Below are positions 39,748 to 56,444 of a stretch of DNA of 64,000 nucleotides, piece by piece. The number at the start of each line of letters is the position of its first letter. Position 1 is the stretch's first letter. Made by a program: the position numbers and the translations under genes. Source of the DNA: Janthinobacterium agaricidamnosum NBRC 102515 = DSM 9628 (GTDB taxonomy: Bacteria; Pseudomonadota; Gammaproteobacteria; Burkholderiales; Burkholderiaceae_D); contig NZ_HG322949.1 of the NCBI RefSeq assembly GCF_000723165.1, forward strand, positions 2,328,881-2,392,880. Reading direction: 5' to 3'. A model generated the notes under the pieces. The model ran no database searches and was not told where the DNA came from. It was given only the letters and a program-made list of their open reading frames with translations.

Positions 39748-39793
39748 TAAAAAAGCCGCTGCCGCTCAGATCAACGCTATTGCCGGCAGCGGC
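39748..39793 (-). terminator. Terminator overlapping the RES toxin 3' end
   Basis: GCCGCTGCCG (39755-39764) and CGGCAGCGGC (39784-39793) form a 10-bp perfect stem with a 19-nt loop. On the minus strand it is followed by six T. The toxin stop codon lies in the loop, so the hairpin closes the toxin-antitoxin transcript. Confidence 0.8.
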
Positions 39794-40461
39794 GTACCCG
39801 CCCATGTTAACCGATAGGCCTGTCCTTTGCGAACATTGCCGACCAGGGCCGGCCGGAAACAGGCCAGGTTGATGCCGCCGGCCCGCCGCACGCTGGGGAA
39901 AATCAGGCCCATCGAACCGGCGTCGAGCAGGTGCTTGGCCAGCTGCTGCGAGTGGATATAGCTGGCCGGGTCCAGGCAATTGCCGAAGCGCGGCAAGCCG
40001 CGCACATCGTGGAAGCTGGCGTTGAAGTCGGCCAGCAGCGCCTGGTAATTGACGCTATCGTCGAAACGGCCGATTTCCATGTATTCGACGGTTTTATGGA
40101 ACACGATTTCAGCCAGCGCGGTATCGCTGTCGAATGCGCAATACCATGCGCCGCGTTCGCCATCGTTGAAACGGCTGCCTTCCGGCCGCGCATACGTGTA
40201 GGCGGCGTTGATGATGCGGAAGTTCGGCACGCCGAACACCAGTTCATCGACGCCGATGCCGGGTGCGCCGCCGTGTTCGGCGATCAGGCGGTCGTTGGTG
40301 GCGTTATCGAGCTCGAACAGCTCGCCCAGGTGGTCGGCATCGTCGGACAGCGGGGCCAGCACCGAGTCTTCCATGTCGGCGAAACGCGAGGGTAGCAGCC
40401 GGCAGGTGTCGAACTGGCGCAGCGCGGAGAGCGGCGGCAGGGCGGGGCCGGCCAAGGTCAC
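39766..40461 (-). CDS. RES-domain toxin (NAD-degrading type)
   Basis: 231 residues. The RES domain shows the conserved Arg, Tyr and Glu in SRFNDGERGAWYCAFDSDTALAEIVFHK and a C-terminal SVRRAGGINLACFRP segment. RES toxins of Xre-RES modules degrade NAD+ and halt growth. The start is GTG 40461, which overlaps the antitoxin stop as GTGA, with GGAGG just upstream; the frame is open further upstream but that part is antitoxin antiphase sequence. Translational coupling to the antitoxin is clear. Confidence 0.9.
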   Translation of the reverse strand: MTLAGPALPPLSALRQFDTCRLLPSRFADMEDSVLAPLSDDADHLGELFELDNATNDRLIAEHGGAPGIGVDELVFGVPNFRIINAAYTYARPEGSRFNDGERGAWYCAFDSDTALAEIVFHKTVEYMEIGRFDDSVNYQALLADFNASFHDVRGLPRFGNCLDPASYIHSQQLAKHLLDAGSMGLIFPSVRRAGGINLACFRPALVGNVRKGQAYRLTWAGTPLPAIALI

Positions 40462-40901
40462 AGCCCTCCGCGGCGGGCGTCGAGCAGCTTGCGCACGGTT
40501 TGCATCGCCAGCAAGCCGCCGGCCAGCATCTGCGACAGCGGCGTGCGGCCGCCGAAAATCTGGTTCTTGTTCGGCAGGCTGACCCACTCATCGGCCAGTT
40601 GGTCGCCGTAGAGGATGTGCAATGCCTTGTAAATGCCGAGCAGATAGGAAATGCGCGTGATGCGGTCGACTTCCAGGATACGGTCGGGATTCTTTTTCCA
40701 CTCATAAAACGCGCTGCTGGACAAGCCGCCGAGCAATTCGCGGGCGTCTTCGTCGCGCAGCTTCCAGGCGGCGATCAGCTTGAAAAAGCCTTTCAGCGCG
40801 GATTTCGACAAGCGCTCGCGCTCGGCCCTGGCGTTCAGATCGACCAGCACGGCCGGTTCAAAGCGGCTTTTGGGGTAGGCGTAGGCTAGATTCATCATCA
40901 C
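40458..40901 (-). CDS. Xre/MbcA/ParS-type antitoxin
   Basis: 147 residues. A helical N-terminal DNA-binding Xre-like domain contains WKLRDEDARELLGGLSSSAFYEWKKNP. The C-terminal MbcA/ParS/Xre toxin-binding domain contains RISYLLGIYKALHILYGDQLADEWVSLPNKNQIFGGRTPLSQML. It neutralises the RES toxin encoded immediately downstream and should repress its own promoter. Three consecutive ATGs open the gene; AGGAG favours the second or third. A perfect palindrome covers the ribosome site and promoter. Confidence 0.9.
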   Translation of the reverse strand: MMMNLAYAYPKSRFEPAVLVDLNARAERERLSKSALKGFFKLIAAWKLRDEDARELLGGLSSSAFYEWKKNPDRILEVDRITRISYLLGIYKALHILYGDQLADEWVSLPNKNQIFGGRTPLSQMLAGGLLAMQTVRKLLDARRGGL

Positions 40902-40902
40902 T

Positions 40903-40934
40903 CCTTTTATGGATTATTTATACTCCATAAAAGG
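40903..40934. promoter_or_regulatory. Palindromic operator/promoter of the Xre-RES module
   Basis: CCTTTTATGGA (40903-40913) and TCCATAAAAGG (40924-40934) are a perfect 11-bp inverted repeat with a 10-bp AT spacer. On the minus strand the spacer contains a TATAAA-like -10, and the proximal arm contains the AGGAG ribosome site. Antitoxin binding would block both transcription start and, by design, the leader. Confidence 0.75.
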
Positions 40935-40961
40935 TTTTGTGGCAAGCGTGGCGCGCGCTCC

Positions 40962-42086
40962 TCAAGGCGTGAATTCAATACTGATGCCGGCGTCCGCTTG
41001 TTCCGGGTAGCGGGTCGAAAAATCGTAGCGCGCCTTCAACTCCGGCTGATCCCAGGGCGCAGTCCGCGCGCAGCGGTAGTTGAACAGCAGCTCCAGCGGC
41101 CGTGGCGCGTGCACGATGACGCGGGCGATCGCCTCGGCATCGGGATGGTTGAAGTAACTGCCGTCGCTGGAAATGATATAACGTTGACAGCACAGGCGAT
41201 GCAGCAGCGCGGGGCTGATATTGCCGCGGCTGCCATGATGGGGCAGCTTGACCAGGTCGAGCGGCAGCCTGGCTTGCTGCCGCATCCCCGGCAAGCGCTT
41301 GAGCGCGGCTTCGATGACTTGCGGATGCGCATCGCCCGGCAGCAGGCAGCGAATCGCGCCGTATTCGAGCAGCAGGCCGATGCTGCTGCCATTGGCGGGC
41401 GCGCGGTCGGCGCTGAATGGCTGCGCGGCCAGCGCCTCGACATCCAGCGCGGCGCCGCTGGCAAAGCTGGGAACGGCGAGCCGCCTGATGGCCGCCAGGC
41501 GCTGCATGTCTGCTTCGGTGCTGTCGGGAGCGAGTCCGGCGCGTAGCAATTCCTGGTCCCAGTTCAGGCGCAAGCGCCGCAGTTGCGGCGCGGCCGGCGA
41601 CAGGATGACGGCGCTGGCCTCGCCTGGCAGGACCAGCGGCGGCAGCGGGCCCGGCGCCGCCATCACCGGGCCGCCGTTAAAAGGGCGATTCCACGCGATG
41701 TTGCGGGCGCGTATCAAGGCACTCAGATATTCTCCCTGCACGACCCCGTAACTTTGCTGCGCCAGCCGTTGGCCGGAGGTCGCCGCGCCGCTTAATTGAT
41801 GCAGGCCGTTGTACCAGATGTCGCTGACCGACAGTTGCAGCTCCCGGTCGCGCAGCAGCTTGATGATGCCTTCGATATGATCGCCATCAATATGCGTGGC
41901 GATCAGCAGGTCGATGCGCCGTTGTCCCCGCGGCAGGCGGTTCACGCGCCGCCTTAGCGCCTGGTAGGCAAAGGCAGGTCCGCCGTCGATCAGGATGCGG
42001 TGGGGATGCGCGGGGTCGCCATATTCTATCCACACACAATCGCCGTGGCGCGCAGCGAGAAATTCGATGCGGAACATGGCTGCCAT
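40962..42086 (-). CDS. ComEC/Rec2-like metallo-beta-lactamase-fold hydrolase
   Basis: 374 residues, a soluble stand-alone MBL-fold protein like the C-terminal domain of ComEC. Metal-binding motifs: RHGDCVWIEYG, ATHIDGDHIEG (THxDxDH), a late PGDAHP aspartate and LPHHGSRGN. It probably hydrolyses a phosphodiester or nucleotide, but the substrate is unknown. It begins 3 bp after the patatin stop, so it is the last gene of the CHAT-STAND operon. A 60-bp gap separates it from the toxin-antitoxin pair, which has its own operator. Confidence 0.82.
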   Translation of the reverse strand: MAAMFRIEFLAARHGDCVWIEYGDPAHPHRILIDGGPAFAYQALRRRVNRLPRGQRRIDLLIATHIDGDHIEGIIKLLRDRELQLSVSDIWYNGLHQLSGAATSGQRLAQQSYGVVQGEYLSALIRARNIAWNRPFNGGPVMAAPGPLPPLVLPGEASAVILSPAAPQLRRLRLNWDQELLRAGLAPDSTEADMQRLAAIRRLAVPSFASGAALDVEALAAQPFSADRAPANGSSIGLLLEYGAIRCLLPGDAHPQVIEAALKRLPGMRQQARLPLDLVKLPHHGSRGNISPALLHRLCCQRYIISSDGSYFNHPDAEAIARVIVHAPRPLELLFNYRCARTAPWDQPELKARYDFSTRYPEQADAGISIEFTP

Positions 42087-42089
42087 GGT

Positions 42090-43190
42090 TCACAGCGCAA
42101 ACTGCGGAAACGGCCAGGCTCCCGCCTTTGAACCGCGAGCCAGGTGGCGCCGCAGCGCCGCATCGGCCAGCGCATAGCCCCAGTTGACCAGCATGCCTTG
42201 TTCTTCCTCGGAAAATCGGTTGAGCCGGGTGCGTATGCCGGCCAGTTGCCGTGAACGCGCGCTATCCTGGCTCATCGGGTCGGCCAGCCCGTAGTTGCCG
42301 ATGGCGCTGGCGATGCCCCAGTACGCTCCTTTGCGCACGCCATTGTGCAATTCGCCCAGCAACTGGCGTTTGCGCAGCGCGCGCTGCTGTTCGGTACAGA
42401 TATCGAGTACCCGCAGCAATTGCCGCGGCCATGACGACGATGGCGTGGGGTTGATGGCGAACGGTTTTCCGGCGTCGCTGACCAGCACGGTGTCGTAGCG
42501 GCGCCATACCGATTCCAGTCCCATATTGTCGTAAACGCCACCATCGGTCAGCACCATGCGCCGGCGCAAAGCGGGATCGCCGGATCGCAGCGCGCCTTGC
42601 GTGATGCGCCATTGGCACGGATCGGTGTCGATATAGACCGGCGACAGCCATGGCGGGAAACCGCTGGACGCGGCAACCACGCGGGCCAGCGGCAGCGCCG
42701 GCAAGTCCAGCATGCCGAGCTTGTAGTCGGCCAGGTATTTGCGCGACATGCGCACGCTGGCGCCGGTTTGCAGGCTGGTTGCGTAGAAGACAAAGGCGGG
42801 ATTTCTGCTTTCGTCCGGCAAGTCTTGCAGTGTCGCGGCGCCAAACAGCCCTTGCCGGTATCTGGCCTCGAGTTGTCCGCCTATGCCGCTGCGCGGTGAA
42901 AACAGGCCGCTCAAGCCAGCCGATATGTCGATACCCTTCAGGCAAAAGCGCATCAGCGGTTGCGCCACGACGGTACTGAAATTGTCCGCGATACCGCCGC
43001 TGAAGTGCAATTCCGGCCAGTGCAGCGCCAACACGGCGTTGGTGATCGATCCGCCCGACACGCTGGTGATGCGCTTGACCGACGACAGCATGCCGAGTTC
43101 GTTGAGCCGCCACAGCGAACCCAGATTGAACAGCGCGGCGCGAAACCCGCCGCCCGATAGCGCCAATCCCGTGCCTGTCTCTGCCATCAT
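42090..43190 (-). CDS. Patatin-like phospholipase
   Basis: 366 residues. Oxyanion motif SGGGFRAALF (residues about 12-21), nucleophile elbow TSVSGGS and the catalytic Asp in TDGGVYDNMG form a complete Ser-Asp lipase site. No signal peptide is present, so it acts in the cytoplasm, presumably on the inner membrane, as patatin effectors of CBASS-type immune systems do. It sits in an operon 42 bp after the caspase-like gene and 3 bp before the MBL gene. Confidence 0.88.
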   Translation of the reverse strand: MMAETGTGLALSGGGFRAALFNLGSLWRLNELGMLSSVKRITSVSGGSITNAVLALHWPELHFSGGIADNFSTVVAQPLMRFCLKGIDISAGLSGLFSPRSGIGGQLEARYRQGLFGAATLQDLPDESRNPAFVFYATSLQTGASVRMSRKYLADYKLGMLDLPALPLARVVAASSGFPPWLSPVYIDTDPCQWRITQGALRSGDPALRRRMVLTDGGVYDNMGLESVWRRYDTVLVSDAGKPFAINPTPSSSWPRQLLRVLDICTEQQRALRKRQLLGELHNGVRKGAYWGIASAIGNYGLADPMSQDSARSRQLAGIRTRLNRFSEEEQGMLVNWGYALADAALRRHLARGSKAGAWPFPQFAL

Positions 43191-43232
43191 TGCCTCGCCT
43201 GGCTGGTCATGCCATCATTTCATGTCACCGCG

Positions 43233-44693
43233 TCAGGCGAGGGCGGCCAGCCGTACCGCGGGATCGCCGACGATGACGTAATTGCGCGCGTCGTTGAGCG
43301 CGGTCCACATGCCGGCTATCCGCGCATGGTCGATTTTCCTGCCGTTGCGGATACGTCCCAGCTCCTCGGTCAATCCTGCCGCCAGCACGGCATGGCGCAG
43401 GCCGAAAATATCCATCGCATGGCCGACGGTATAACCATCCATCAGGCTGCACAGCAGGTCTTCGAACATGCCGATCTGTGCCGCCTTGGCTCCCGGCCAC
43501 ATGAAGGAATAACCCCAGGCCCGGTCGACATGGCCGATGAAGGCCAGCGCGCCGCCGCCGGCATGTCCCAGCAGTTGCTGCGCCAGCGGCGCCAGCATCG
43601 GCGCGGCGGCAATCCGGCGCGGGGCTTGCCGCGTGCCCGCCGCAAAGTTGTCGAATTGCGGCGTGCCGGCGCTGTAGCAGGCAAAATGCAGGCTGACCAG
43701 GCCGGCCGGACTAGGCCCGCGGCGCGCGTCTTCGCCGGAAAAGAAGAACGCCGGCGGCAAGGCGCCGGCGTGCGCCAGTGGGCCGGGCCAATCCTGGCAA
43801 AGCAGCGCGCCCTGGCAGCTGGCCTGGCGTGCGTCGCCGGCCGGGAAGCCGACGCCGTGGCTGGCGGTGAGCAGCAGCGCCGGATCGCGCCGGCTGCCGA
43901 TCAGGCCGGCCAGGCATGCCTTGTCCGCATCGTTGCCCAGATGGCTATCCAGCGACCAGCCTGGCGTCCGGCGCGTGGCGCAAGCGCTGGACAAGGCGCT
44001 GGACAAGGGGCGCGCCAGATGTTCAAGCGACAAGGCGGTCGCCTCGTCGTCGGGATTGGCGGGGGCGAAGAGCGCGACCCGGCGTGCCCGCCGCAGCTTG
44101 CCCTGTTCCGCATCGACGACGCTGCGGGCGTAATTGGCCTATTGCTCCAATGTATCGAAGGCGATGCGCCCTACCGCATATTGCACCCCCAGTTGATGCT
44201 GGAAAGAAAAAGGAATCTGATGCGGCGTGCCGACCAGCAGCACATAATAGGGCAAGCGCAGCGGATTGGGCGCCTGTCCCGGCGCACTGTCATTCTCGAT
44301 TAAAAAGTCGTCGCAGGACATGCCGGGCCGATATCCCCGGCTGGCGCGGTATTCCCGATAGCAGGGCTTGTGCTGGTTGGCCTGGGCTTGGCGCCAATTC
44401 AGCAACGGCGCCAGTGCAGCGTGGATGCCGGGTTCGGCGGCGCTGTGGAACAGCACTCCCCAGCCGGCCTGCGCCAGTTGTTCGGCATCGATCCCGTAGC
44501 CAGGCGCCAGATGGGGTTCTGCCTGCGCCAGCTTATGCCTGGCGCCGCATGCCGCAGGATGCGCGGGGAGGCCGAGCGCGAGGGCGGAAAGCTGCTCCGG
44601 CGCCAGGGCCGCCTCGATATAGCGGCCGCTGGCGCCATTGACGCCATTGGGCGCGCAGCGGAGCGCCGGGACCGGTGCCTGAAGCGTGTTCAT
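43233..44693 (-). pseudogene. Caspase-fold cysteine protease-like protein interrupted by an in-frame TAG
   Basis: One continuous frame of 487 codons with a single amber codon at 44139-44141 (codon 185); without it the protein would be 486 residues. The upstream part ends FDTLEQ and the frame resumes without shift at ANYARSVVDAEQGKL, so the two ORFs (44693-44139, and the part with first ATG at 44033) are one gene. The second part has a caspase/CHAT/gingipain-like dyad: LLLTASHGVGF (His about 279) after a hydrophobic strand and LVSLHFACYSAGTP (Cys about 339). It starts with ATGA overlapping the STAND stop. Exact peptidase family is not certain. It could be a pseudogene, a suppressed or readthrough gene, or a sequence error. 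Confidence 0.75.
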
Positions 44694-47600
44694 TGCTTGC
44701 AGGACTTATAGGGAGCGTTGGGCGCCGCGCCGTCTGGCGCCAGCGCCTCGCGCCTGACGATGCCGCAGGCGAGCCTGACTAGCGAACTCATCCTCAAGTC
44801 CCACAGTTGCGGCAGCTCGCCGCCGGTGACAATCAGTTCGCCATTTTCAGACAGCGCCACCGGCAGTGCCGCCGCTTTGCCCGTCAGCGTGCGGCCCAGC
44901 CTGCGATAAGGCAGGCTGGCGGCATCCCACAGCATGATGCGGCCATCGCGGTCGGACGACAGCATCACAGGCCGGGCGCCGCCGCTGAACGCCAGCGCGC
45001 TGATATCGACTTCATGCAACTGGTCCAGCGGCTGCCGTGCGCCGGTCGCGACATCGACGATGAAAATATCGTGTTCGGTGGTGCCCAGTGCGACATGGCT
45101 GCCGTCCGGCGCATAGGCGAGCGCCGAGACGAGCAGTGCCGGTATCTGTTGCGGACCGGTGTTGGCCGCCCGCTGTATCTTGCCCTGGGCGCTGACGCTC
45201 CAGAAGGTCAGGCTGATCTCGCCGCTGATCGTGGCCAGCTGGGTGCCCAGCGGGTTGAACGCCAGTTGCTGTATCTTGGCCTGCTGGTCTACGGCGACGC
45301 TGTCGAGCAAGCGCGGCTGGCGCGGTACGCCGACGTCGTACAGCGAGAGAGTATGGCCGGCCGCCACCGCCAGCGTCGCGCGGCGCGGGTCGGGATGGAA
45401 TGCCAGCCGATAGCGCGCCGATTTTTCGGCGCTCCCCGGCAATTGCGCCAGCAGCTGGCCGGCGCGGTTCCACAGCATGATTTTCTCGCCGGCCTGGCCG
45501 GCGGTGGCGATCAGCGTGCCGCTGCGATTCATCGCCAGCGCTGTCAAGCTGGCGGTGCGCACCTCAAAAGGCGTTTGTTTGGCGTAGCCGTGAAGCGTGG
45601 CGTCCTGCGCAATCTGTAACGCGACCTGGTGCGACGAGCCGAGTGCGACGGTGTGGCCGTCGGCCGACAGCGCCACATGGCTCCAGCCGCCGGCGCCGGC
45701 GGAGCCGCGCGGAACGATGTCGAAGGCCTGCGTCGGCAGGGGCCTGGTGTTGTTTAAATCGATTAACGACAGCGTGCGGCTGCCGCCAACCGCCAGGATG
45801 GACGCGGAGTAGGGCGCGAACGCGACGCTGTACAGACGCTCCGGAAAGCGCAGTTGCAACGGCGCCCGGTAGTAGGCGTCGCGTCCTTGCCGCTTATCGA
45901 ATAGCGGATCGACGTCGACGGTCTTGCTTTCTCCGCCGACAAAGGCCAGCCACTTGCCGTCGGCGGAGAAATCTGCGGCGAATGCGGGAGCATCGGATTT
46001 TCCATAGCTGCCCATCGCGCTTGCCAGTTGCGGCACGCCGGTCGCATGATCCCATACGGCGACGCGGCTGCGCCGTTCCGTGATCGCGTCGTCTATCCGC
46101 ACTTCCGCCCAGCCGCTGGCGGCGAGCCGCTGCTTGACCGCATCGTAGCTCAAGCCATAGACCCCGGCCTTGCCTGGGGCGCCATGATGGCCATTGTCGG
46201 CCAGATTCAGCCGCATGGTGCGGACCAGTGCCCGGGCGGCGCCGTCGGCCGCGTTCCACGGCCATAGCCAGATATAACCGTTGAAATCGCCAATCGCCAG
46301 CCGATCCTGTCCCACGAAGGCCAGCGCATATATCTTGCCGGCGCCTTTGGCCGCGCCCTGGAAGCGCGCCCGCTCCAGCGGCGCGGCGGGATCGCTGATA
46401 TCCCACACCACTACTTGCCGGTCCCATATGCCGACCGCCAGCGCGCGCTGGTCCGGGCTGAAGGCGAGCGTGGTCAGCCTGGCGCCCGCATGATGCTTTT
46501 CGCTGAGCAGCCTGACGCCGGGTTTGCCGCCCGTGAAAGTGCTTGCCCACAGGCGCAGCGTGCCGGCCGCGTCGGCGCTGGCCAGCAGGCTGCCGTCGGC
46601 ATTGAACGCGACGCAATACACCATCGCCGGGTGCGGGATGGCAGTGATTTGCTTGCCGCTGCGCAGATCCCACAAGATGACCGATTTGTCGAAGCTGGCG
46701 GAGGCGATCATGGTGCCGTTCGGGTGAAAGGCAAGCTGGCGTATCGAGGCGTTATGCCCGTTGAAGACTTGTTTGGTCGGCGGCACCACCACCAGCCCGG
46801 ACAGCAGTGCGGCACGGGTCAATTGTTGCGGATCAGCCAGTGCACCCGCCGCCACTTGTTTGGCCGGCGCCGCCAGCAGCAAGTCGTGGGCGCTCAATCC
46901 CAGCCGCAGCGTTTGCGCATATTGGCCTTGCGGCAGCGTCAGCGCATCGCCGCTGACGCTGCGTATTTCGTTGATGCTATAGGCAATATAGAGTTCGTTG
47001 CGCAGCCGCTGCTGATTACGCCACTGATATGTCAGGCAGCCCGCCAGCACCACCATGACCGCCATCCCGCCGCGCTGCCAGAGGATCTGGCGCCGGTTGC
47101 GGCGCTGCTGCTGCAGGATCGAGCGGGCATCGTTACTGGCGGCGATGCTGGCGCTGAGGTAGTCCTGTTCGTTTTTATCGGCGTCGCCGCGATGCGCTTC
47201 ATACCAGTTGCTGGCGTCGCCGATCGCGCTATCGGACAGCAGCATATTGTCGCCGCGTCCCTGGGCGTCCCATAGCGCCGCCTGCCGCTGGAACGGGGTC
47301 AGGTTATGCTGCTGCCAGAGTTCGTTGCGCTCCAGGATAGGCGCGACCAGCCGGTCATGGGTGATTTCGATCCACTCGCGGCCGTTGCGCCGGTCGTAGC
47401 GCAATAGATGCTCGCTGACCAGCAAGTCTATGCTGTGGTTATCCAGCCCATGCGTGGATCCCGTTTCGCGCAGGATTTGGGCGCGCAACGACTTGGCGAC
47501 GATCAGGTATTGATCGATCCACGCGCGCAGGCGGCGTTCCGCGACGCCGCCGATCGCGGCGGTGGCGGCGATGACGCTATCGTAGAATTCCCCGAGCGCG

Positions 47601-48517
47601 TCGTCGACGGCGCCCGATTTGCGCAATTCGGCCGGCCCGAGGTTTTGTTTCAGGTGTAAATCCCACAGCCGGCGGCAAACCACTTGCAGCTGTACCGGCT
47701 CGACATGCGTACCGATCGCCAGGTGGTGCGAGTCGCCGGTCTGGACCCGCACGGTGGCCAGGTCGTCGGCCAGTTCGGCGATATGTTGCGGGTCGAATGG
47801 ATGGCCGGCCGCGCTGGCCGGCCCGCTGATGGCCTGGCAGGCCTGGCCGCGGTTGAGCAGGTTGAGGCGGTAGCGGGTCAGCAGCGAGGTGGGCAGCAAG
47901 TGGCTGTAGACGTCGATGTCGGCGATGTGATCTTCGCGGATGACGAAGATGGCCCAGCGCCGGCGGTCTTGCAGCGCTACCGCGAGTTCCAGGAAAAACT
48001 CCAGTTTCAGGGCGTGGTCGGTCGGGTCCAGCGTGCAAATTTCCTCGAACTGGTCGAAGATCAGCACTTCGAGTGCCGAGTCCGGCGGGCCGTCCTGCGG
48101 CTGGTGCGGACGCGCCTCCAGATAGGCCGACAAGGATAGCGGCATGGCTGCCTCGATGGCGTTGCGCTGCTGTTCGTCCAGGTCCGACGACAGACATTCG
48201 GTGACGCTGTAAAGGTAGCGGTTGCGGCTCTGGCTGCTGTTGTCCGCGGCCAGCAGATTGACGCGTATGGCGGGCAGTACCCGGAAATTTTCTTGCTGGC
48301 GCAGCAGTTTGATCAGGCCCGCATTGATCAGCGAAGTCTTGCCGGCGCCGGATGGCGAATACAGCAGGATCAGCCGCTCGGCAACCAGCAAGTCGCATAG
48401 ATCCCGGGTTTCGTTATCGCGTCCGAACAGGGCATCGTCCGCTTGCAGCGGCCGCGGACCGACGAAAGGATTGGCGCGGACTTTGGCGCGGCGCTCATTG
48501 ATCTGTTCGGGTTGCAT
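44690..48517 (-). CDS. STAND-type NTPase with transmembrane segment and WD40 propeller
   Basis: 1275 residues. An N-terminal FVGPRPLQADDALFGRDNE motif typical of nSTAND1 NTPases leads into Walker A SPSGAGKT (54-61) and Walker B VLIFDQFEE (151-159), then a helical/winged region to about 470. A hydrophobic membrane segment follows at about 480-500 (GGMAVMVVLAGCLTYQW). From about residue 600 come at least ten degenerate WD40 blades, including GHNASIRQLAFHPNGTMIAS. The layout is that of a ligand-gated sensor hub: the propeller recognises a trigger and the NTPase oligomerises. It overlaps the SIR2 frame by 23 bp upstream and the caspase-like gene by ATGA downstream. Confidence 0.9.
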   Translation of the reverse strand: MQPEQINERRAKVRANPFVGPRPLQADDALFGRDNETRDLCDLLVAERLILLYSPSGAGKTSLINAGLIKLLRQQENFRVLPAIRVNLLAADNSSQSRNRYLYSVTECLSSDLDEQQRNAIEAAMPLSLSAYLEARPHQPQDGPPDSALEVLIFDQFEEICTLDPTDHALKLEFFLELAVALQDRRRWAIFVIREDHIADIDVYSHLLPTSLLTRYRLNLLNRGQACQAISGPASAAGHPFDPQHIAELADDLATVRVQTGDSHHLAIGTHVEPVQLQVVCRRLWDLHLKQNLGPAELRKSGAVDDALGEFYDSVIAATAAIGGVAERRLRAWIDQYLIVAKSLRAQILRETGSTHGLDNHSIDLLVSEHLLRYDRRNGREWIEITHDRLVAPILERNELWQQHNLTPFQRQAALWDAQGRGDNMLLSDSAIGDASNWYEAHRGDADKNEQDYLSASIAASNDARSILQQQRRNRRQILWQRGGMAVMVVLAGCLTYQWRNQQRLRNELYIAYSINEIRSVSGDALTLPQGQYAQTLRLGLSAHDLLLAAPAKQVAAGALADPQQLTRAALLSGLVVVPPTKQVFNGHNASIRQLAFHPNGTMIASASFDKSVILWDLRSGKQITAIPHPAMVYCVAFNADGSLLASADAAGTLRLWASTFTGGKPGVRLLSEKHHAGARLTTLAFSPDQRALAVGIWDRQVVVWDISDPAAPLERARFQGAAKGAGKIYALAFVGQDRLAIGDFNGYIWLWPWNAADGAARALVRTMRLNLADNGHHGAPGKAGVYGLSYDAVKQRLAASGWAEVRIDDAITERRSRVAVWDHATGVPQLASAMGSYGKSDAPAFAADFSADGKWLAFVGGESKTVDVDPLFDKRQGRDAYYRAPLQLRFPERLYSVAFAPYSASILAVGGSRTLSLIDLNNTRPLPTQAFDIVPRGSAGAGGWSHVALSADGHTVALGSSHQVALQIAQDATLHGYAKQTPFEVRTASLTALAMNRSGTLIATAGQAGEKIMLWNRAGQLLAQLPGSAEKSARYRLAFHPDPRRATLAVAAGHTLSLYDVGVPRQPRLLDSVAVDQQAKIQQLAFNPLGTQLATISGEISLTFWSVSAQGKIQRAANTGPQQIPALLVSALAYAPDGSHVALGTTEHDIFIVDVATGARQPLDQLHEVDISALAFSGGARPVMLSSDRDGRIMLWDAASLPYRRLGRTLTGKAAALPVALSENGELIVTGGELPQLWDLRMSSLVRLACGIVRREALAPDGAAPNAPYKSCKQ

Positions 48518-49241
48518 GATTGCCCCACTGCCGGGTTAATTCATCGACAAAGCTTTCCAGGCTTGAGTCATAGATCTCGACATTGCGATTCGACGTGAAA
48601 TATTTTCTTAAATAGTCGCGCGCAACCTTCGGTTCTATCATGCGTCCTTCCAATGGCTCGATCTGTACCGCGATGTGGGAATACTGTTCGCTGCTGCGGT
48701 TGCCCTCGCGGCGCAGCAGTCCACGAAACAGGGTGCGGAAATCCCAGTCGTCGAATTGAAAACCGAGAAAGACCAATCCCTTTTGCGCGAATACCCGCCG
48801 CATGTACGGCGCCAGTCCGGTCACGGTATTGGCCTGGTTGCGCGTAAAGCCGACCAGGAAATCGAAATAGTCGTCCTCGGTCAGCACCACGGTGGAGGGC
48901 GCGCTCATATTGCCGAAGACTTGAAATACCAGCGGCCGTTCGATGCTGGGGCGGTAGCCCGGTTCCGTGTCGAACACCGACTCGGGCCAGTCCGCCTCGT
49001 CGTTCTTCTCGAATTCGCGCCAGCGGCATACCACCACCGCGGGCTTTCGGTCTTCCGCTGCCAGCGCCTCTTCCAGCAGATTGTCGCGGTTGGTCGTCAC
49101 GTAGGTGGTAAAGGGCAGGCGCGCCAGCTTGCTGTAAATGTCTTGCGCCTGACCCGATGCCGCATCGGTTTTGCGCAGCGACTGGCCGACCACGCTGACC
49201 AGTTTGGCCAGCGAATAATCCTTGCCTTTTGCGTTGCGCAT
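48495..49241 (-). CDS. SIR2-like domain, displaced frame of the CHAT-SIR2 gene
   Basis: Carries most of a SIR2-fold domain: TTYVTTNRDNLLEEAL, STVVLTEDDYFDFLVG, and a late strand VFLGFQFDDWDF typical of SIR2_2-like NADase/nucleotide domains. The frame is open from about 49316, upstream of its first ATG (49241), and continues a sequence whose start (VLVLGPGLAEGI) is in the CHAT frame. The fusion is broken by one base near 49313. The usual catalytic HG is read here as VFQVFGN, so the histidine seems to be missing. Intact, the combined protein would be about 721 residues. It overlaps the STAND start by 23 bp. Confidence 0.75.
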   Translation of the reverse strand: MRNAKGKDYSLAKLVSVVGQSLRKTDAASGQAQDIYSKLARLPFTTYVTTNRDNLLEEALAAEDRKPAVVVCRWREFEKNDEADWPESVFDTEPGYRPSIERPLVFQVFGNMSAPSTVVLTEDDYFDFLVGFTRNQANTVTGLAPYMRRVFAQKGLVFLGFQFDDWDFRTLFRGLLRREGNRSSEQYSHIAVQIEPLEGRMIEPKVARDYLRKYFTSNRNVEIYDSSLESFVDELTRQWGNHATRTDQ

Positions 49242-50659
49242 GTCCAGCGGTAATTCATCGCGGTATTTGCTGCTGATTTCTTTTTTAAATGCTTTCTTAA
49301 TTGCTCCAACGGAAAATTACGATTGCGGCTATAGGCCAGGTATTGGGCCACCTGCGGCAAGTCGTCGCGCTGTTGCGGCGCCATCGGAAAGCCATAATGG
49401 TCGGCCCAGCGCGCGGCGATGTCGCGTGACGAGCCGATGATGCCTTCCGCCAGGCCGGGCCCCAGCACCAGCACGGTATGGTCGCCGCTGATATCGGTCA
49501 GCAAGGCGTCCCAATGAAAACTGCCGCCGTTGCTGGCGCTGTTGCCATACCATAGGGCTCCCCCTTTGAGGCGCATGAAAAGTACCGGCATCCACCAGTC
49601 TGCGCGCTGGCGTATCTGGCCGCGCGCCACCGCCATGGCGCTGTCGATCTGGCCGTGCAGCCGTAATTGCTGGAACAGATGCGGCATGAAAATGGCGACG
49701 CTGGCCATGCTGATGTTGCCTTGCATGCCGATCACCGCCGGCACGCCCGCTTCCAGCAAGCGCGGGCCGAGTGCGGTCAGGGCGCGGCCTTCCTGCAAGT
49801 CGCTGCCGTCGCCGGCGCTCTGGCAGGAGGCCAGCACCACCAGGCGCGGGCGATGCTGCATTTCGCGCAAGCGCACCGCCAGCTCGCTGCCGCGCACCAC
49901 GTCGGTATCGCCGGCGTCGTTTTCGAGGTAGAGGCGGGGTTTTTCGTCGATCAGGGCGCCATGGCAAATCAGGTAGAAAATATCGTATCCGTGCCGTAAC
50001 TTGGTAATGATGTTGCTGAAGGTGGCCTGGCCGCGTTCGGCCAGCAGGTCATAATCGAAATCGGCGAAGGTGGTGGCCGCCAGTTTGCTCTCGTTCGGCA
50101 CATCGGCCGGCGTGAAACTCTGGTTGCCGTGCTGGTAGTCGCCGATATCCTGCGGATTGCAGATCACCACCAGCACCTTCAGGCGGTGCGCGCGAACCGG
50201 CGTCAGCGGACGCCAGTCATTGCTGCCGAGGTAGCGCGAGAACACCACGTCGTCGCGCATCAGTAGCAGGCTCTGGTCGACCGGGTCGGCCAGGGTTTCC
50301 CACCAAATATTATGCAGTTCCGGCGCATTGTTGCTGATAAACAGGCGCAGGCGCAGTACCAGTTGCCGCTCTTGCGCGATATTGTGGGCCGAGTCATAAC
50401 CGTTGCGGATCTCGGCGTTGCCAAACAGCATGGAGGATAATGCCTGGCCGTACTGTACCGCGTCGCCCTTGTATTGCGCCAACACCTGGAGGTCGATTTT
50501 GACGGGGCTGGTGTCGATCATGCGCACATCGGCATCGTCTTGTGGCCGGGTGAAACGCAACGCGGCGGTGTACAAACCTGGCTGCAGCCAGCGCAGTGTC
50601 AGTTCCAGTTCGCAAGCTTGTCCATTTGCTGTCGGACCCGCCGCATTCCCCATTGTCAT
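49097..50659 (-). CDS. CHAT-domain caspase-like protease fused to a SIR2 domain (frameshifted)
   Basis: The leading gene of the island operon. Residues 1-150 are unassigned. A CHAT (caspase HetF-associated with TPR) protease domain follows at about 160-380, with the catalytic His233 in FYLICHGAL and Cys279 in VVLASCQSAG. The start of a SIR2 fold (VLVLGPGL, about 396) follows until residue 449. There the frame shifts: from F449 the tail to 49097 is out-of-frame Arg-rich sequence, while the true continuation is in the other frame. A T lost from a T-tract at 49313-49316 explains it. ATG 50659 has GGAG about 12 bases upstream. If translated alone, the CHAT part would still be complete. Confidence 0.82.
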   Translation of the reverse strand: MTMGNAAGPTANGQACELELTLRWLQPGLYTAALRFTRPQDDADVRMIDTSPVKIDLQVLAQYKGDAVQYGQALSSMLFGNAEIRNGYDSAHNIAQERQLVLRLRLFISNNAPELHNIWWETLADPVDQSLLLMRDDVVFSRYLGSNDWRPLTPVRAHRLKVLVVICNPQDIGDYQHGNQSFTPADVPNESKLAATTFADFDYDLLAERGQATFSNIITKLRHGYDIFYLICHGALIDEKPRLYLENDAGDTDVVRGSELAVRLREMQHRPRLVVLASCQSAGDGSDLQEGRALTALGPRLLEAGVPAVIGMQGNISMASVAIFMPHLFQQLRLHGQIDSAMAVARGQIRQRADWWMPVLFMRLKGGALWYGNSASNGGSFHWDALLTDISGDHTVLVLGPGLAEGIIGSSRDIAARWADHYGFPMAPQQRDDLPQVAQYLAYSRNRNFPLEQLRKHLKKKSAANTAMNYRWTCATQKARIIRWPNWSAWSASRCAKPMRHRVRRKTFTASWRACPLPPT

Positions 50660-50896
50660 GGTTGCCGCTCCGCATACGTTCTACTTCATCCGGAAAATGC
50701 GCGGCCTGTCATATGGGTGCTGAACATAGGGTGCTGAGCATAAATTAATTGCCGATTACTATCACGGCATTCGTCAGGCGGCCTTGCGCACTCCCAAACT
50801 ACTACTTGGATCAATGCCGTCTTTGATAATTCGTAAAGTGCAAAGCGGAACTTTCAGGCCATCGGCCAGCCTGTAGACCGGGTGTTGCGCTGACGG

Positions 50897-52597
50897 TCAA
50901 GCCGGTTCGGCGTGTTCCACCATCAATTGCACCTTGGTCGTGCCATTGTATTCGTTGGCGTCCAGCCGGAACGCCACCCGCGCCCGTTCGCCGACGGCAT
51001 CCGTGTGGCCGAACCAGATCGCGTCGAAGCGGGCGCCGTTCTTTTCGAGCAGCAGTTTCAAGTGCCGTTCTTTCAAGATGCGCTGGCTGACCACCCGGAA
51101 TTCGTCGCAAAACACCGGCGGCGCAAAACCCTGGCCCCACACCTGGCCATCCATCAGCGCGATGAAGTCGGTGGTGTAATACGCGTCTTCCAGCGGGCCG
51201 TCGGTTTCGATCACGCGTTCCAGTTGCTGCTGGCTGAGCCAGGCCCGCCCGACCGCTTCGAACGCCTGTGAAAACGCGTCGAACGCGTCGGCGCGGATGG
51301 TCAGGCCGGCCGCCATCGCGTGGCCGCCGAATTTGTCGATCAGACTGGGCGCGCGTTTCGACACCAGGTCGAGCGCGTCGCGCAGGTGAAAACCGGGGAT
51401 CGAGCGGCCGGAGCCCTTGATCCAGCCGTCGGCGCCGGGCGCGAAGGTGATCGTCGGGCGGTAGAATTTTTCTTTCAGGCGCGACGCGACGATGCCGATC
51501 ACGCCCTGGTGCCACGCCGCGTCGAACACGCTGATGGTGCTGCTGTTGGCCGGTTCGAACTGGTCCAGGTGCAGCAAGGCCGTATCTTGCATTTCGGCTT
51601 CGATTTCGCGCCGCTTCAGATTGATGTCGTTCAGTTGCTGGGCCAGCGCCCACGCGCGGCCTTCGTCGTCGGTGATCAGGCATTCGATGCCGAGCGACAT
51701 GTCTTGCAGGCGGCCGGCGGCGTTCAGGCGCGGCCCCAGCGCGAAGCCGAGGTCGAACGGGGTGGCGCTGCGGGCCTCGCGGCCGGCCACACGGAACAGC
51801 GCCGCCACGCCGGCGTGCATCTGGCCGGCGCGCATGCGCTTCAAGCCTTGCGCGACCAGGATGCGGTTGTTCGCATCGAGGCGCACCACGTCGGCCACCG
51901 TGCCGAGCGCGACCAGGTCGAGCAAGTGGTCCAGCTTCGGCTGGGTTTGCTGGTCGAAGATGCCGCGCCGGCGCATTTCGGCGCGCAGCGCCAGCAGCAC
52001 GTAAAACACCACGCCGACGCCGGCCAGGTGCTTGCTCGGGAAGCCGCAGGCGGGCTGGTTCGGGTTGACGATGACGCGCGCGTCCGGCAAGGTCTCGGCC
52101 GGCAAATGGTGGTCGGTGACGACCACTTCGATGCCGCGCCGGTTCGCTTCGGCGACGCCGTCGATGCTGGCGATGCCGTTGTCGACGGTGATGATGATGT
52201 CGGGCGATTTTTCGCGCGCCGTCAGCGCCACGATTTCCGGCGTCAGGCCGTAGCCGTACTCAAAACGGTTGGGCACGATGAAATCGACGTGCGCGCCCAT
52301 CGCCCGCAAGCCGCGCAGCGCCACGGCGCAGGCGGTGGCGCCGTCGCAATCGTAGTCGGCCACGATGACCATGCGTTTATGGGCGGCGATGGCGTCGGCC
52401 AGGAATGCGCCGGCGGCGTCGATGTGCAGCAGGCCGGACGGCGGCATCATCGATTTCAGTTCAATCGACAGCTCCTTGGCGTCGACCAGGCCGCGCGCCG
52501 CGTACAGCCGCGCCAGCACTGGGTGGACGCCGTCCTGGCGCAGCATTTCGGATACCCGGAACGGGCAGGGGCGGGTGGCGATGCGGGTACGGGTCAT
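50897..52597 (-). CDS. recJ: Single-stranded-DNA-specific exonuclease RecJ
   Basis: 566-residue DHH-family 5'-3' exonuclease of recombination and mismatch repair. DHH motifs: MVIVADYDCDGATAC, VDNGIAS, TDHHLP and GTVADVV; the DHHA1 signature GGHAMAAG is followed by a C-terminal OB-like part. ATG 52597 forms an ATGA overlap with the upstream gene's stop, so the start is clear although the frame is open to 53050. It marks the right border of the accessory island. Confidence 0.95.
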   Translation of the reverse strand: MTRTRIATRPCPFRVSEMLRQDGVHPVLARLYAARGLVDAKELSIELKSMMPPSGLLHIDAAGAFLADAIAAHKRMVIVADYDCDGATACAVALRGLRAMGAHVDFIVPNRFEYGYGLTPEIVALTAREKSPDIIITVDNGIASIDGVAEANRRGIEVVVTDHHLPAETLPDARVIVNPNQPACGFPSKHLAGVGVVFYVLLALRAEMRRRGIFDQQTQPKLDHLLDLVALGTVADVVRLDANNRILVAQGLKRMRAGQMHAGVAALFRVAGREARSATPFDLGFALGPRLNAAGRLQDMSLGIECLITDDEGRAWALAQQLNDINLKRREIEAEMQDTALLHLDQFEPANSSTISVFDAAWHQGVIGIVASRLKEKFYRPTITFAPGADGWIKGSGRSIPGFHLRDALDLVSKRAPSLIDKFGGHAMAAGLTIRADAFDAFSQAFEAVGRAWLSQQQLERVIETDGPLEDAYYTTDFIALMDGQVWGQGFAPPVFCDEFRVVSQRILKERHLKLLLEKNGARFDAIWFGHTDAVGERARVAFRLDANEYNGTTKVQLMVEHAEPA

Positions 52598-53637
52598 GTC
52601 GACAACTTGTTCAAGGTGATGGCGCGCCAGAATTTGCGCTGGGCGTTTTTGTTGCCGCTGAATTCGGCGCAGGTATCGCGGTTGCTCAAGACCAGCGTCA
52701 ACTGGCCGATGCGGCCGTCTTTGAGCGCCGCCAGCAACGGTGCGAACCATTCCTGTTCCAGGCGCTGCATCTGCATCAGCCAGCCGGACCAGTCTTCCGA
52801 CAGGCCGGGGCCGCTCAGGCTGCCCAGCACGGCCAGCGCCTGGCGCGGATTGTCTTTGAGTATGCCGTCCAGCGTCGCCGCGCGGCGGCCCGGTTCGGCC
52901 AGCGCCGCCGTCCACGACGGCACGTCGGCGGTATATAACGGGGGGCTGGCGCTTGGCGCTGGCTGTGCCGCGCCGCCCCACAGCCAGAAGGAATTGACGG
53001 CGCCGAGGCCGCGCTGCTGGCGCGCTTGGTTGACGGCGTTTTCGTACCACAGCATTTGCACTTCGTTTTGCAATTTGCGCGACGCCAGCGCGTTGGCGCC
53101 TTCCGGCATCCAGCCATTCAGGTTGTGGCCGGTGGCGGTATCGGGCGAGGCGGTGGCCAGTTGGGCCCAGTCGTCGGCGCGCATGAACCAGGTATGCGCG
53201 TCGCCATACAGCAAGGGTTTGCCCAGTTCGTCGAAATACGGCCTGGCGCCGTCGAACAGCGCGCGGCTGTCCGCTTGATCCAGCGTCAATTGGCGGGGGT
53301 CGCCCATTTGCAAGTGGTTACGGGCGATTTGCACATGAATCGGATGGATTAAAAACCAGCAGCCGCCATCCGGCTGCAAGCCGTAGCCGCGCATCGCCGC
53401 CTGGGCGAACGCGGTGCTCGCGCCGCTGCCGTGCGGCGCCGGGCTCAGGCCCAGCGCATGGGCCAGCCAGGTTTCATGCGGCAGCACGCGGCTGCCATTG
53501 TCGACCGGGGTGACGGCGTATTGGCTGGTGCGTGACAGCAAGGCCGCCAGCGCGGGCGCATGGAGTGCGCGGATCAGGTCTTTGGCGAGCTCTGCCATTG
53601 GCAGGGCGAAGGGCAGGACGATGGTAAGTTGATTCAT
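52594..53637 (-). CDS. RpfE-type conserved protein
   Basis: 347 residues. It resembles the beta-proteobacterial family often labelled regulatory protein RpfE type or, by automatic transfer, phosphoglycerate mutase. Visible blocks are IVLPFALPMAELAKDLIRAL, a long middle with GCWFLIHPIHVQIARNHL, and a C-terminal LTLVLSNRDTCAEFSG. No PGM active-site motif is visible to me, so an enzymatic label is not justified. It is translationally coupled to recJ by ATGA, a conserved pairing that hints at a nucleic-acid-related job. Confidence 0.8.
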   Translation of the reverse strand: MNQLTIVLPFALPMAELAKDLIRALHAPALAALLSRTSQYAVTPVDNGSRVLPHETWLAHALGLSPAPHGSGASTAFAQAAMRGYGLQPDGGCWFLIHPIHVQIARNHLQMGDPRQLTLDQADSRALFDGARPYFDELGKPLLYGDAHTWFMRADDWAQLATASPDTATGHNLNGWMPEGANALASRKLQNEVQMLWYENAVNQARQQRGLGAVNSFWLWGGAAQPAPSASPPLYTADVPSWTAALAEPGRRAATLDGILKDNPRQALAVLGSLSGPGLSEDWSGWLMQMQRLEQEWFAPLLAALKDGRIGQLTLVLSNRDTCAEFSGNKNAQRKFWRAITLNKLST

Positions 53638-53797
53638 CCCGAGATTGTAGGGCATCCGCCGCTGTTTTTGTGCGGCGAGCCTGAGAAAAGCGCGGACAAA
53701 CCAGGCTGGCCCGTGCTTGCCGATGGCATAAATGGTGTGGTGAAATCAATTTCTATGGCACACTGCGCGCTCACAGGGTTTTCCATTGCGGGATCGC

Positions 53798-55072
53798 ATG
53801 AGCATCATCAAGAAATTTCCATTCGAATGGCAAATCGGCGTGCGGTATACGCGCGCCGGCAAGCGCAGTGCGCGCAACAGTTTTATTTCCTTTATTTCAC
53901 TGATTTCCGTGGCCGGCATCGGCCTCGGCGTGGCCGCGCTGATCGTGGTGTTGTCGGTGATGAATGGTTTCCAGAAAGAAGTCACCGACCGGCTGATGTC
54001 GGTGCTGGCCCATGTCGAGGTATTCGACACCCGTGGCGCGATGCCGGACTGGCAAGACCAGGTCAAGGCCGCCTTCGCCAATCCGGCAGTGCGCGGCGCC
54101 GCGCCGTTCGTCGAAACCCAGGGCATGCTGCTGCACGACGACACCATGCGGCCGTCGGGGATCCGCGGCGTGCTGCCGCAGGAAGAACCGAAAGTATCCA
54201 GCGTCGCGGCGCAAGTCAAACAGGGCAGTTTCGACGACTTGAAGCCGGGCGCCTTTCATATCGTGCTGGGGGTGGACCTGGCGCGCGCGCTCGATGTCAC
54301 GGTCGGCAAGAATGTCACGCTGCTGCTGCAGCGCGAGCCGGAGCCGGGCCAGCCCGCTTCCACGCTGCTGCCGCGCATGCGCGCCTTCACCGTGGTCGGT
54401 ATTTTCGAAGCCGGTCACAATGAACTCGATTCCAGGCTGGCCTTCATCCACATGAACGACGCCGAAAGCCTGCTGCACCTGGCCGGGCCGTCCGGCCTGC
54501 GCTTGAAACTGGCCGACATGGACCGCGCGCCGCAAGTGGCGCGCGAACTGAAGGCGTCGATGCCGGGCGACTTGTGGATGCGCGACTGGTCGCGCGTCAG
54601 CGCCAGCTGGTATGCGCTGGTGCAAAGCCAGAAAAACATGATGTTCATTATCCTCAGCATGATCATCGCGGTGGCGGCCTTTAACCTGGTGTCGACGCTG
54701 GTGATGAGCGTCACCGACAAGCAGGCCGATATCGCGATCCTGCGCACGCTGGGCGCGTCGCCGGCGTCGATCATGAAGATTTTCATGATCCAGGGCGCGC
54801 TGGTCGGCTTGCTCGGCAGCGCGCTGGGCGTGGCCGGCGGGGTCGTGCTGGCGCTCAATGTCGGCAGCATCGTGCCGGTCATCGAGCATCTGCTGGGCAT
54901 GCATTTCCTGTCGAAGGAGATTTACCAGATCAGCACCGTGCCGTCCGACGTGCACTGGCTGGACGTGCTGCATATCGGCTTGATCGCGTTCGCGCTGTCG
55001 CTGGTGGCGACGATTTATCCGAGCTGGCGCGCGGCCCGCGTGAAACCGGCCGAGGCCCTGCGCTACGAATAA
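53798..55072 (+). CDS. lolC: Lipoprotein-releasing ABC transporter permease (LolC/LolE-like, copy 1)
   Basis: 424-residue MacB-fold permease of the Lol system that frees lipoproteins from the inner membrane. An N-terminal helix ([34 protein letters not shown]) is followed by a periplasmic domain of about 200 residues and three C-terminal helices with [26 protein letters not shown] 53798 (MSIIKKFPFEWQIG) matches the second copy's start. Copy 2 follows in tandem, then lolD; both copies share near-identical helices and a similar upstream box. Confidence 0.92.
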   Translation: MSIIKKFPFEWQIGVRYTRAGKRSARNSFISFISLISVAGIGLGVAALIVVLSVMNGFQKEVTDRLMSVLAHVEVFDTRGAMPDWQDQVKAAFANPAVRGAAPFVETQGMLLHDDTMRPSGIRGVLPQEEPKVSSVAAQVKQGSFDDLKPGAFHIVLGVDLARALDVTVGKNVTLLLQREPEPGQPASTLLPRMRAFTVVGIFEAGHNELDSRLAFIHMNDAESLLHLAGPSGLRLKLADMDRAPQVARELKASMPGDLWMRDWSRVSASWYALVQSQKNMMFIILSMIIAVAAFNLVSTLVMSVTDKQADIAILRTLGASPASIMKIFMIQGALVGLLGSALGVAGGVVLALNVGSIVPVIEHLLGMHFLSKEIYQISTVPSDVHWLDVLHIGLIAFALSLVATIYPSWRAARVKPAEALRYE

Positions 55073-55178: not shown

Positions 55179-56444
55179 ATGAGTATCCTTAAGAATTTGC
55201 CGTTTGAATGGCTGGTCGGCTTGCGCTACACGCGTGCGGGCAAGCGCAGCGGCCGCAATAGCTTCATTTCCTTCATTTCCCTCATTTCGATGGCCGGCAT
55301 CGGCCTGGGCGTGGCCGCGCTGATCGTGGTGCTGTCGGTGATGAACGGCTTCCAGAAGGAAGTCACCGACCGCATGCTGTCGGTGCTGGCGCATGTCGAG
55401 GTGTTCGATGCCAGCGGCAGCATGCCCGACTGGCGCAAGGATGCCGCCGCCGCCTTCAGGAATCCGGAAGTGAAGGGCGCCGCGCCGTTCGTCGCAACCC
55501 AGGGCATGCTGCTGGGCGACGACGTGCTGCGTCCGGCGGAAGTGCGCGGCGTGCTGCCGGAAGAAGAGCCGAATGTGTCCGACGTGGCGAAGCAAACCAG
55601 ACGCGGGAATTTCAATGATTTGAAGCCGGGCGCATATAACATCGTGCTGGGCATCGAACTGGCGCGCGCGCTGCGCGTCAGCCTCGGCGAAAAAGTGACC
55701 TTGATGCTGGCCCAGGGCCAGGTCACGCCGGCCGGCGTGCTGCCGCGCCTGCGCACCTTCACCGTCACCGGCATCTTCGAGGCCGGCCACGCCGAATTCG
55801 ATTCCAGCCTGGCCTTCATCGACATCACCGACGCCGAACGCCTGCTGCGCCTCGACGGCCCGTCCGGCCTGCGCCTGCGGCTGAGCGACATGAACCGCGC
55901 GCCGCAAGTGGCGCAAGACTTGAAGGCGTCCATGCCCGGCAATCTGTGGCTGCGCGACTGGTCCAAGCTGAACGCCAACTGGTTCGCCGCCGTGCAAACC
56001 GAGAAGCGCATGATGTTCATCATCCTGGCGCTGATCATCGCGGTGGCCGCGTTCAACCTGGTGTCGACGCTGGTGATGACGGTCACCGACAAGCAGGCCG
56101 ACATCGCCATCCTGCGCACGCTGGGCGCGTCGCCGCGTTCAATCATGAAGATCTTCGTGATCCAGGGCGCGCTGGCCGGCATCCTCGGCACGATACTCGG
56201 GGTCGGCTGCGGCGTGCTGGTGGCGCTCAATATCGACGTCATCGTGCCGTTCATCGAACATCTGCTGGGCGTGCAATTCCTGTCCAAGGATATTTATTTC
56301 ATCAGCACCGTGCCGTCCGATCTGCGCTGGGCCGACGTGTCGAAGATCGGCGGGCTGGCGGTGGTGCTGGCTTTCCTGGCGACGCTGTATCCAAGCTGGT
56401 GGGCGGCGCGCGTGAAACCGGCGGAGGCCCTGCGCTATGAGTGA
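55179..56444 (+). CDS. lolE: Lipoprotein-releasing ABC transporter permease (LolC/LolE-like, copy 2)
   Basis: 421-residue paralogue of the preceding gene, with the same architecture and long identical runs in the first helix and the C-terminal coupling region ([23 protein letters not shown]). It diverges in the periplasmic domain (for example [11 protein letters not shown] against VFDTRGAMPDW). Its upstream region repeats ATGGCACACTGC at a similar distance. The two may act as a heterodimer like E. coli LolC/LolE. Which copy is functionally E is not decidable from sequence; the symbol is provisional. Confidence 0.85.

Follow-up and report, generated by a model that had tools for sequence, protein, structure and literature searches.

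A 64,000-nt stretch of the genome of Janthinobacterium agaricidamnosum NBRC 102515 = DSM 9628 (assembly GCF_000723165.1, contig NZ_HG322949.1, positions 2,328,881-2,392,880, forward strand; hereafter the window) carries an operon at window positions 40962-50659 in which a two-protease STAND core is joined to a module of a lipase and a predicted pro-nuclease. The layout was established from six-frame open reading frames (ORFs) and Pfam matches, and all coding regions were found on the minus strand. A CHAT ORF of 520 aa (49097..50659; E = 6.6e-28), a predicted initiator caspase-like protease, comes first. It is followed by a SIR2-like domain (48495..49316; SIR2_2, 4.7e-21) which, with support from relatives, represents the second half of CHAT-SIR2; its frame is open from 49316 with the first ATG at 49241 (ORF 49241-48495). 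Next are a predicted sensor and switch of 1275 aa (44690..48517), composed of an nSTAND1 NTPase (1.4e-29) and a C-terminal WD40 propeller (4.1e-35), and a C25 (gingipain-type) peptidase, the predicted executioner (43233..44693). The last two genes encode a patatin-like phospholipase of 366 aa (42090..43190; 1.7e-14), predicted to damage membranes, and a metallo-beta-lactamase (MBL) fold hydrolase of 374 aa (40962..42086; Lactamase_B_2, 1.3e-8).

SIR2 and STAND overlap by 23 bp and STAND and C25 by 4 bp (ATGA), with gaps of 42 bp between C25 and patatin and 3 bp between patatin and MBL. A preliminary description, made from the sequence alone, had reported five genes read in one direction with these overlaps and gaps; every value was reproduced by the ORF analysis, and its NAD-fold domain corresponds to the SIR2_2 match. 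The five minus-strand coding regions stand, but the sequence as it stands shows interruptions in two of them, CHAT-SIR2 and C25.

Similarity to CHAT can be followed in one frame as far as about 49276, and that to SIR2 is in a different frame, open from 49316. CHAT-SIR2 is thus not one open frame, contrary to the earlier description: the frame shifts within 49276..49316 (minus strand), and past about 49276 the CHAT ORF is out of frame relative to CHAT-SIR2 homologues. In the C25 gene the frame is broken by a TAG (44141-44139), which falls on a site conserved among relatives. One same-genus genome has 15 ORFs with matches of 65% or more to the window; 12 of them are uninterrupted and the other three were judged partial or antisense. 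This argues against an error-ridden assembly, so that generally poor assembly is not favoured as the cause, and is still compatible with two local errors.

At the frame-change point (49286-49280) the heptamer A AAA AAG, a strong -1 slippery sequence in E. coli, is in exact register with the CHAT frame. Both interruptions could in principle be functional, with a programmed -1 frameshift yielding CHAT-SIR2 and read-through of the stop yielding C25. We regard this as very improbable. Within 30 codons of the frame-change point, the heptamer is absent from all 15 relatives inspected (six consecutive A occur in L058). RNA folding of the 80 nt downstream does not differ from that of shuffled sequences (z -0.45), and all 19 SIR2-bearing ORFs in the 83 loci described below also contain CHAT, in single ORFs. 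The position of the TAG, conserved in C25, likewise speaks against read-through. We take both interruptions to be lesions or sequencing errors. With interruptions in both CHAT-SIR2 and C25, the window copy probably has no activity, except if they prove to be sequencing errors or are in some way bypassed.

The protease and STAND core across phyla

The second protease is assigned by sequence to the C25 type. On its own the window sequence scored below the Pfam threshold (Peptidase_C25, 0.0054), but two proteins from cyanobacterial plasmids that share 43-47% identity with the two parts of the interrupted gene pass the C25 cut-off (7.9e-10 and 4.1e-7). Compared with a Nostoc plasmid protein annotated as a C25 peptidase, these parts showed identities of 43.6% and 47.0% (E-values 9e-42 and 6e-88; nine proteins compared). 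The catalytic dyad is conserved in the relatives with a residue at the respective column (His 85/85, Cys 85/86). Of the earlier claim of a second caspase-like protease, the family match through relatives and the dyad hold, whereas a PDB profile search gave no gingipain or caspase.

A collection of genomes of 84,980 species was scanned with a three-sequence C25 alignment, and the best 80 of 234 relatives were examined. Three plasmid loci matching CHAT were added, and the resulting 83 loci were read with profiles built from the window genes and their relatives. CHAT was found in 45 of the 80 C25 loci, the NTPase in 38 and both in 33; a single-ORF CHAT-SIR2 was present in 18. Many contigs are short, and among loci of at least 18 kb CHAT was found in 26 of 34. 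In 12 of the 80 loci, from several phyla, CHAT-SIR2, NTPase-WD40 and C25 follow each other on one strand in the order of the window, some with intervening genes. CHAT-SIR2 loci came from Chloroflexi, a Thermomicrobiales bin, Acidobacteria, Desulfobacteraceae-type bins, an uncultured proteobacterium, a Rubrivivax bin (L072) and an Oxalobacteraceae bin (L110). None of these domains occurred in 25 control stretches (498 kb) of one same-genus genome, and 16 patatin/MBL loci yielded one weak CHAT match and no C25, SIR2 or NTPase. CHAT-SIR2, nSTAND1-WD40 and C25 are therefore a recurrent core across phyla.

The residues needed for activity are kept in those relatives that have a residue at the column, both for CHAT (His 51/51, Cys 49/50) and for the NTPase (Walker A Lys 18/18, Walker B Asp 20/20). 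The window protein itself bears the hallmarks of an nSTAND1 switch protein: the nSTAND1 domain, Walker A and B motifs and a C-terminal repeat sensor. Among plasmids, seven records match the window CHAT ORF and six the SIR2 ORF, no CHAT match covering more than 80% of the query.

Against the PDB, the SIR2 family profile matched ThsA (2.2e-10) and other SIR2 defence NADases. The active-site Asn is kept in the window and in 13 of 19 relatives. The column of ThsA His152, which we take to be a catalytic residue, is Phe in the window and in all 19 relatives; two residues upstream, 15 of the 19 have a His and the window a Gln. The PDB titles KomC(H146N) and DSR2(H171A) agree with a catalytic role of that His. 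Since its column is occupied by Phe, a structural or NAD-binding role of the SIR2 domain is more likely than NADase activity, and NAD depletion by SIR2 is not favoured as the main killing route.

The two proteases differ in how they are linked to the switch. Of the 41 NTPase ORFs in the C25-selected loci, 17 also contain CHAT (in 16 loci, 14 of which are cyanobacterial), while fusions of C25 to CHAT or NTPase are absent among the 84 C25 ORFs; once the three plasmid loci chosen by CHAT are included, these counts become 20 of 44 and 0 of 86. A gene resembling alpha/beta-hydrolases, assigned by us from GHSFG-type motifs, occurs in 23 of the 80 C25 loci, in 22 of these within 600 bp of C25. Because CHAT is fused to the NTPase and C25 never is, and because the hydrolase adjoins C25, the arrangement suggests that CHAT is a switch-bound initiator and C25 a downstream executioner placed beside a lipase.

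In a Planctomycetaceae bin, C25 and the alpha/beta-hydrolase-like domain are joined in one ORF (L062:6793-11121, 1442 codons), the sole C25 fusion of this kind. An ORF family of 251-320 codons from stop to stop was seen in L034, L036, L038, L039, L047, L058, L060, L065, L067, L073, L076 and L088. It lies directly downstream of C25 in nine of these 12 loci, with one ORF between in L076 and farther away in L036 and L039. A C-terminal hydrophobic stretch ends in an LPAxW-like motif, and the one member scanned (L065:11538-12326) had no Pfam match. This family may be another effector of the CHAT, NTPase and C25 core.

The patatin and MBL genes

The MBL protein matched the PADLOC models of LmuA-type (5e-67), RTasMBL of DRT (4e-44) and Avs1a (4.7e-38), and annotated avs1a was also found by tblastn. 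In an alignment of 10 proteins it could be aligned with annotated Avs1a over both insertion regions, which putatively lie over the active site. By these similarities it belongs to the "gated" pro-nuclease family of Avs1a, HamM and CanC and is a predicted nuclease, in agreement with the nuclease-type hydrolase proposed earlier. According to the available text of PMC12799240, the partner protease of Hachiman cuts the insertions and thereby turns on the DNase, AVAST uses the same mechanism, and in Canu a caspase complex turns on CanC. With the core recurring across phyla and the MBL in a protease-activated nuclease family, the WD40/STAND switch with several effectors of the preliminary description is supported.

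The reading of all five genes as one conserved system is rejected. The 83 loci gathered by C25 or CHAT were searched with profiles of 11 patatins and 10 MBL proteins, and nothing was matched at E up to 10; conversely, the core did not appear in the 16 patatin/MBL loci. The two halves thus occur independently of each other, an outcome that the preliminary description had itself named as speaking against its reading and that applies here in part, as the three core genes recur together.

Patatin and MBL recur with other proteases. Ten patatin-selected loci (L143-L152) were taken from four of 46 plasmid records and from the best six other genomes among 74 with a match, a total in which the window's own genome is counted. 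An MBL of the window type was nearby in four (L144, L148, L150 and L152), a sub-threshold MBL-fold match was present in L146 and L147, and none was seen in L143, L145, L149 and L151. On plasmids, with 46 patatin and 64 MBL records matching in all, five of the 30 patatin records listed were also among the 60 MBL records listed, each time within 5 kb; two of the five are one species. Further loci (L155-L158 and L160) were selected for a match to MBL or to both. The order patatin, S8 peptidase, MBL was found in L144 and, with one extra intervening gene, in L157. In L155 patatin is divergent from a row of C14 caspase, a gene without assigned function and MBL, and L160 has the same row preceded by a Tle1-like phospholipase in the place of patatin. 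On a Bosea plasmid (L158), C14 caspase genes lie on both sides of MBL, in a stretch with three annotated TIR-domain genes. A grouping of lipase, protease and MBL is therefore recurrent.

Several loci of this set deserve separate mention. In L148, L150 and L152, from the same taxonomic order as the window, patatin, a gene of about 965 aa and MBL stand in a row, and the middle protein has no Pfam match. It has a His and a Cys placed as in CHAT, but hhalign gave probabilities of 3.5% against CHAT-SIR2 and 0.1% against C25, and the protein was left unclassified. In L153, also from the taxonomic order of the window, a window-type MBL ORF adjoins an ORF with CHAT, AAA and S8 peptidase domains, so that two different proteases are carried on one NTPase beside a pro-nuclease. 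On two rhizobial plasmids, a patatin of the window family neighbours an E2/ThiF/JAB fusion protein in L143, and in L146 one is close to a CBASS cyclase with a SAVED protein.

The mutual absence of core and patatin/MBL from each other's loci would also be expected if they were merely neighbours in the window, the patatin-MBL pair being a remnant of a protease-patatin-MBL locus with no functional link to the core; the largest gap, 42 bp, separates C25 from patatin. We consider this quite unlikely, as all genes are on the same strand with gaps of 3-42 bp in this part, 22 of the 80 C25 loci have a lipase-like hydrolase no more than 600 bp from C25, and patatin/MBL pairs elsewhere adjoin a protease, so that C25 fills the expected role.

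Genomic site and the proposed cascade

C25 was found in none of the 39 other genomes of the genus, and the STAND gene gave weak partial matches only, in two of 36 same-genus genomes. In evenly drawn samples of the order (399 genomes, including the window's own) and the phylum (398), there were one and two other C25 matches, respectively, weak and partial. On one side the operon is flanked by a Xre antitoxin (40458..40901) and a RES toxin (39766..40587), on the other by a putatively RecJ-like gene (50897..53050), all on the minus strand. The DNA of the latter is present in 40 of 40 genus genomes, and RES-Xre DNA in 37 of the 39 others (not in G014 and G021). The preliminary description had likened the Xre-RES flank to a defence island. 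The pair does adjoin the operon, but since it is core to the genus while C25 is in none of the other genomes, it is not part of the system. Between the flanks (window 40900-50897), all 10 relatives fetched carry 336 to 5242 bp of varying cargo. The operon is located at a variable site between core genes, and this copy was probably acquired horizontally. In the C25 tree the branch leading to the window is long (1.08) and falls among rows of Acidobacteriota and Myxococcota with no starred support, the bootstrap being unsettled, and the rows nearest by path are mostly Chloroflexota. With the placement unsupported and the nearest rows mostly in another phylum, no donor can be named. On viral contigs, 41 pattern matches included no C25 relative. 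Beyond the RecJ-like flank, two tandem, mutually similar genes (53786-55072 and 55179-56444) putatively encode permease-like proteins; same-genus ORFs match both.

We give about an even chance to the reading that the operon belongs to a bacterial immune system of apoptosome-like plan, with a CHAT to C25 to effector cascade, and that this copy, probably gained by horizontal transfer, has decayed. In such a cascade, the WD40 propeller of the nSTAND1 protein would sense a product of infection, and ATP-driven assembly, as expected for the STAND family, would gather and activate the CHAT-SIR2 initiator. The SIR2 domain, judging from its lost catalytic His, would serve as an assembly or NAD-binding module and not as an NADase. 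CHAT would activate the C25 executioner, which would unlock the MBL pro-nuclease by cutting the gating insertions, as other proteases do in relatives, and may likewise unlock the patatin lipase. The cell would be killed or arrested before the phage spreads. Elsewhere an alpha/beta-hydrolase-like gene often stands beside C25 instead of patatin and MBL. The catalytic residues of both proteases and of the NTPase, kept in relatives, are in support of such a function. The recurrence of the core is an observation; phage defence, the order of the cascade and the action of the lipase are what we infer.

With both dyads intact, the two proteases could also act in parallel, the STAND complex activating each on its own substrates and the MBL being activated, as in Canu, by either CHAT or C25; in the available text of PMC12799240, a single caspase (with CanB) activates the Canu MBL. 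We think this unlikely, as the asymmetry in fusions, mostly cyanobacterial, between CHAT (17 of 41 NTPase ORFs) and C25 (none) fits proteases in series better.

Several points weigh against the proposed cascade. Core, patatin and MBL are together in the window only, and that copy is interrupted. The survey covered the best 80 of 234 C25 relatives. In the Burkholderiales relatives L072 and L110, unlike in the window, the genes for C25 and hydrolase run divergently from those for CHAT-SIR2 and NTPase. As 14 of the 16 fusion loci come from related cyanobacteria, the fusions cannot be counted as independent events. The alpha/beta-hydrolase assignment is based on motifs, and profile searches gave it no Pfam or PDB support. 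The caspase-like fold of C25 is a prediction from the Pfam family and the dyad; the C25 profile matched no gingipain or caspase chain in the PDB, and the C25 and CHAT-SIR2 profiles do not match each other. No C25 or CHAT cleavage sites were identified in MBL or patatin, and phage defence and toxicity of the members are predictions. Nor does co-occurrence prove a cascade: the effectors might be direct targets of CHAT, with C25 in a regulatory role.

More tentatively, and with the balance tipping somewhat against it, the window may represent a widespread apoptosome-like system, in which a WD40-STAND switch would act through an initiator (CHAT-SIR2 or switch-fused CHAT) and C25 on interchangeable effectors, its two tiers of caspase control having arisen in bacteria independently of animals. 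As part of the same tentative proposal, most cyanobacterial loci and two Burkholderiales would use the alpha/beta-hydrolase as effector, and the window patatin with a gated DNase; in Chloroflexota the effector is perhaps a small protein of no assigned family. If true, a pair of caspase-type proteases with an NLR-like switch and effectors varying by lineage would be a testable counterpart of the initiator and executioner logic of animals. Uninterrupted relatives are present in many genomes, and the idea is therefore testable without the damaged copy.

Comparison with known systems

Activation of effectors by proteases has only recently been recognised as a theme of bacterial immunity, and the nuclease examples in the available text of PMC12799240 use one activating protease. 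A patatin or Tle1-like phospholipase beside protease and MBL ties lipases to this theme, a pairing which does not appear in the main text of that paper, where the pro-nucleases are defined. In the literature searched, with subscription papers and nearly all preprints outside its scope, no description of CHAT-SIR2 with nSTAND1-WD40 and C25 was found. nSTAND1 and CHAT proteins are described in the available text of PMC10907252 as targets of diversity-generating retroelements in conflict systems.

Canu (CanABC; Tuck et al. 2025, PMC12799240) resembles the window in having a caspase-type protease gene and an MBL pro-nuclease of the same family in one operon. As far as described in the available text, it has one MALT1-like caspase and CanB, whereas the window has CHAT-SIR2, nSTAND1-WD40, C25 and patatin. 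The Pfam matches of the window show CHAT and a sub-threshold C25, and neither C14 nor an Ig-like domain as marks of a MALT1-like caspase. The words CHAT, C25, WD40, lipase and patatin are absent from the main text of the Canu paper.

AVAST type 1 (avs1a MBL, avs1b protease, avs1c) shares with the window a STAND NTPase, a protease and a homologous MBL. Its protease is trypsin-like and fused to a defence protein (available text of PMC12799240), while the window has two caspase-type proteases in separate genes. The window adds the WD40 sensor and patatin, and its MBL gene is last, whereas that of AVAST is first. The window STAND protein showed no trypsin domain among the best 25 of 42 Pfam families and matched no PADLOC model.

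SAVED-CHAT of type III CRISPR (PMC11229360) is similar to our proposal in that a CHAT protease starts a proteolytic immune cascade. In the available text it is triggered by cyclic tri-adenylate (cA3) through its SAVED domain, without STAND-WD40, and the SAVED_CHAT model scored only 2e-4 on the window CHAT. ThsA and other SIR2 NADase defence proteins have the SIR2-like domain in common with the window (profile 2e-10), but differ from it and its 19 relatives at the His152 column.

In animal apoptosis, a protease-activated DNase acts downstream of the caspase cascade, as is proposed here for the MBL. The animal apoptosome is, as its APAF-1 component is presented in the available text of PMC7159879, like the window in plan, with WD40 and a STAND switch placed over a caspase-type cascade, a proposed one in the case of the window. 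The likeness is an analogy only: the NTPase and protease families are others, and Pfam found no death-fold adaptor in the window.

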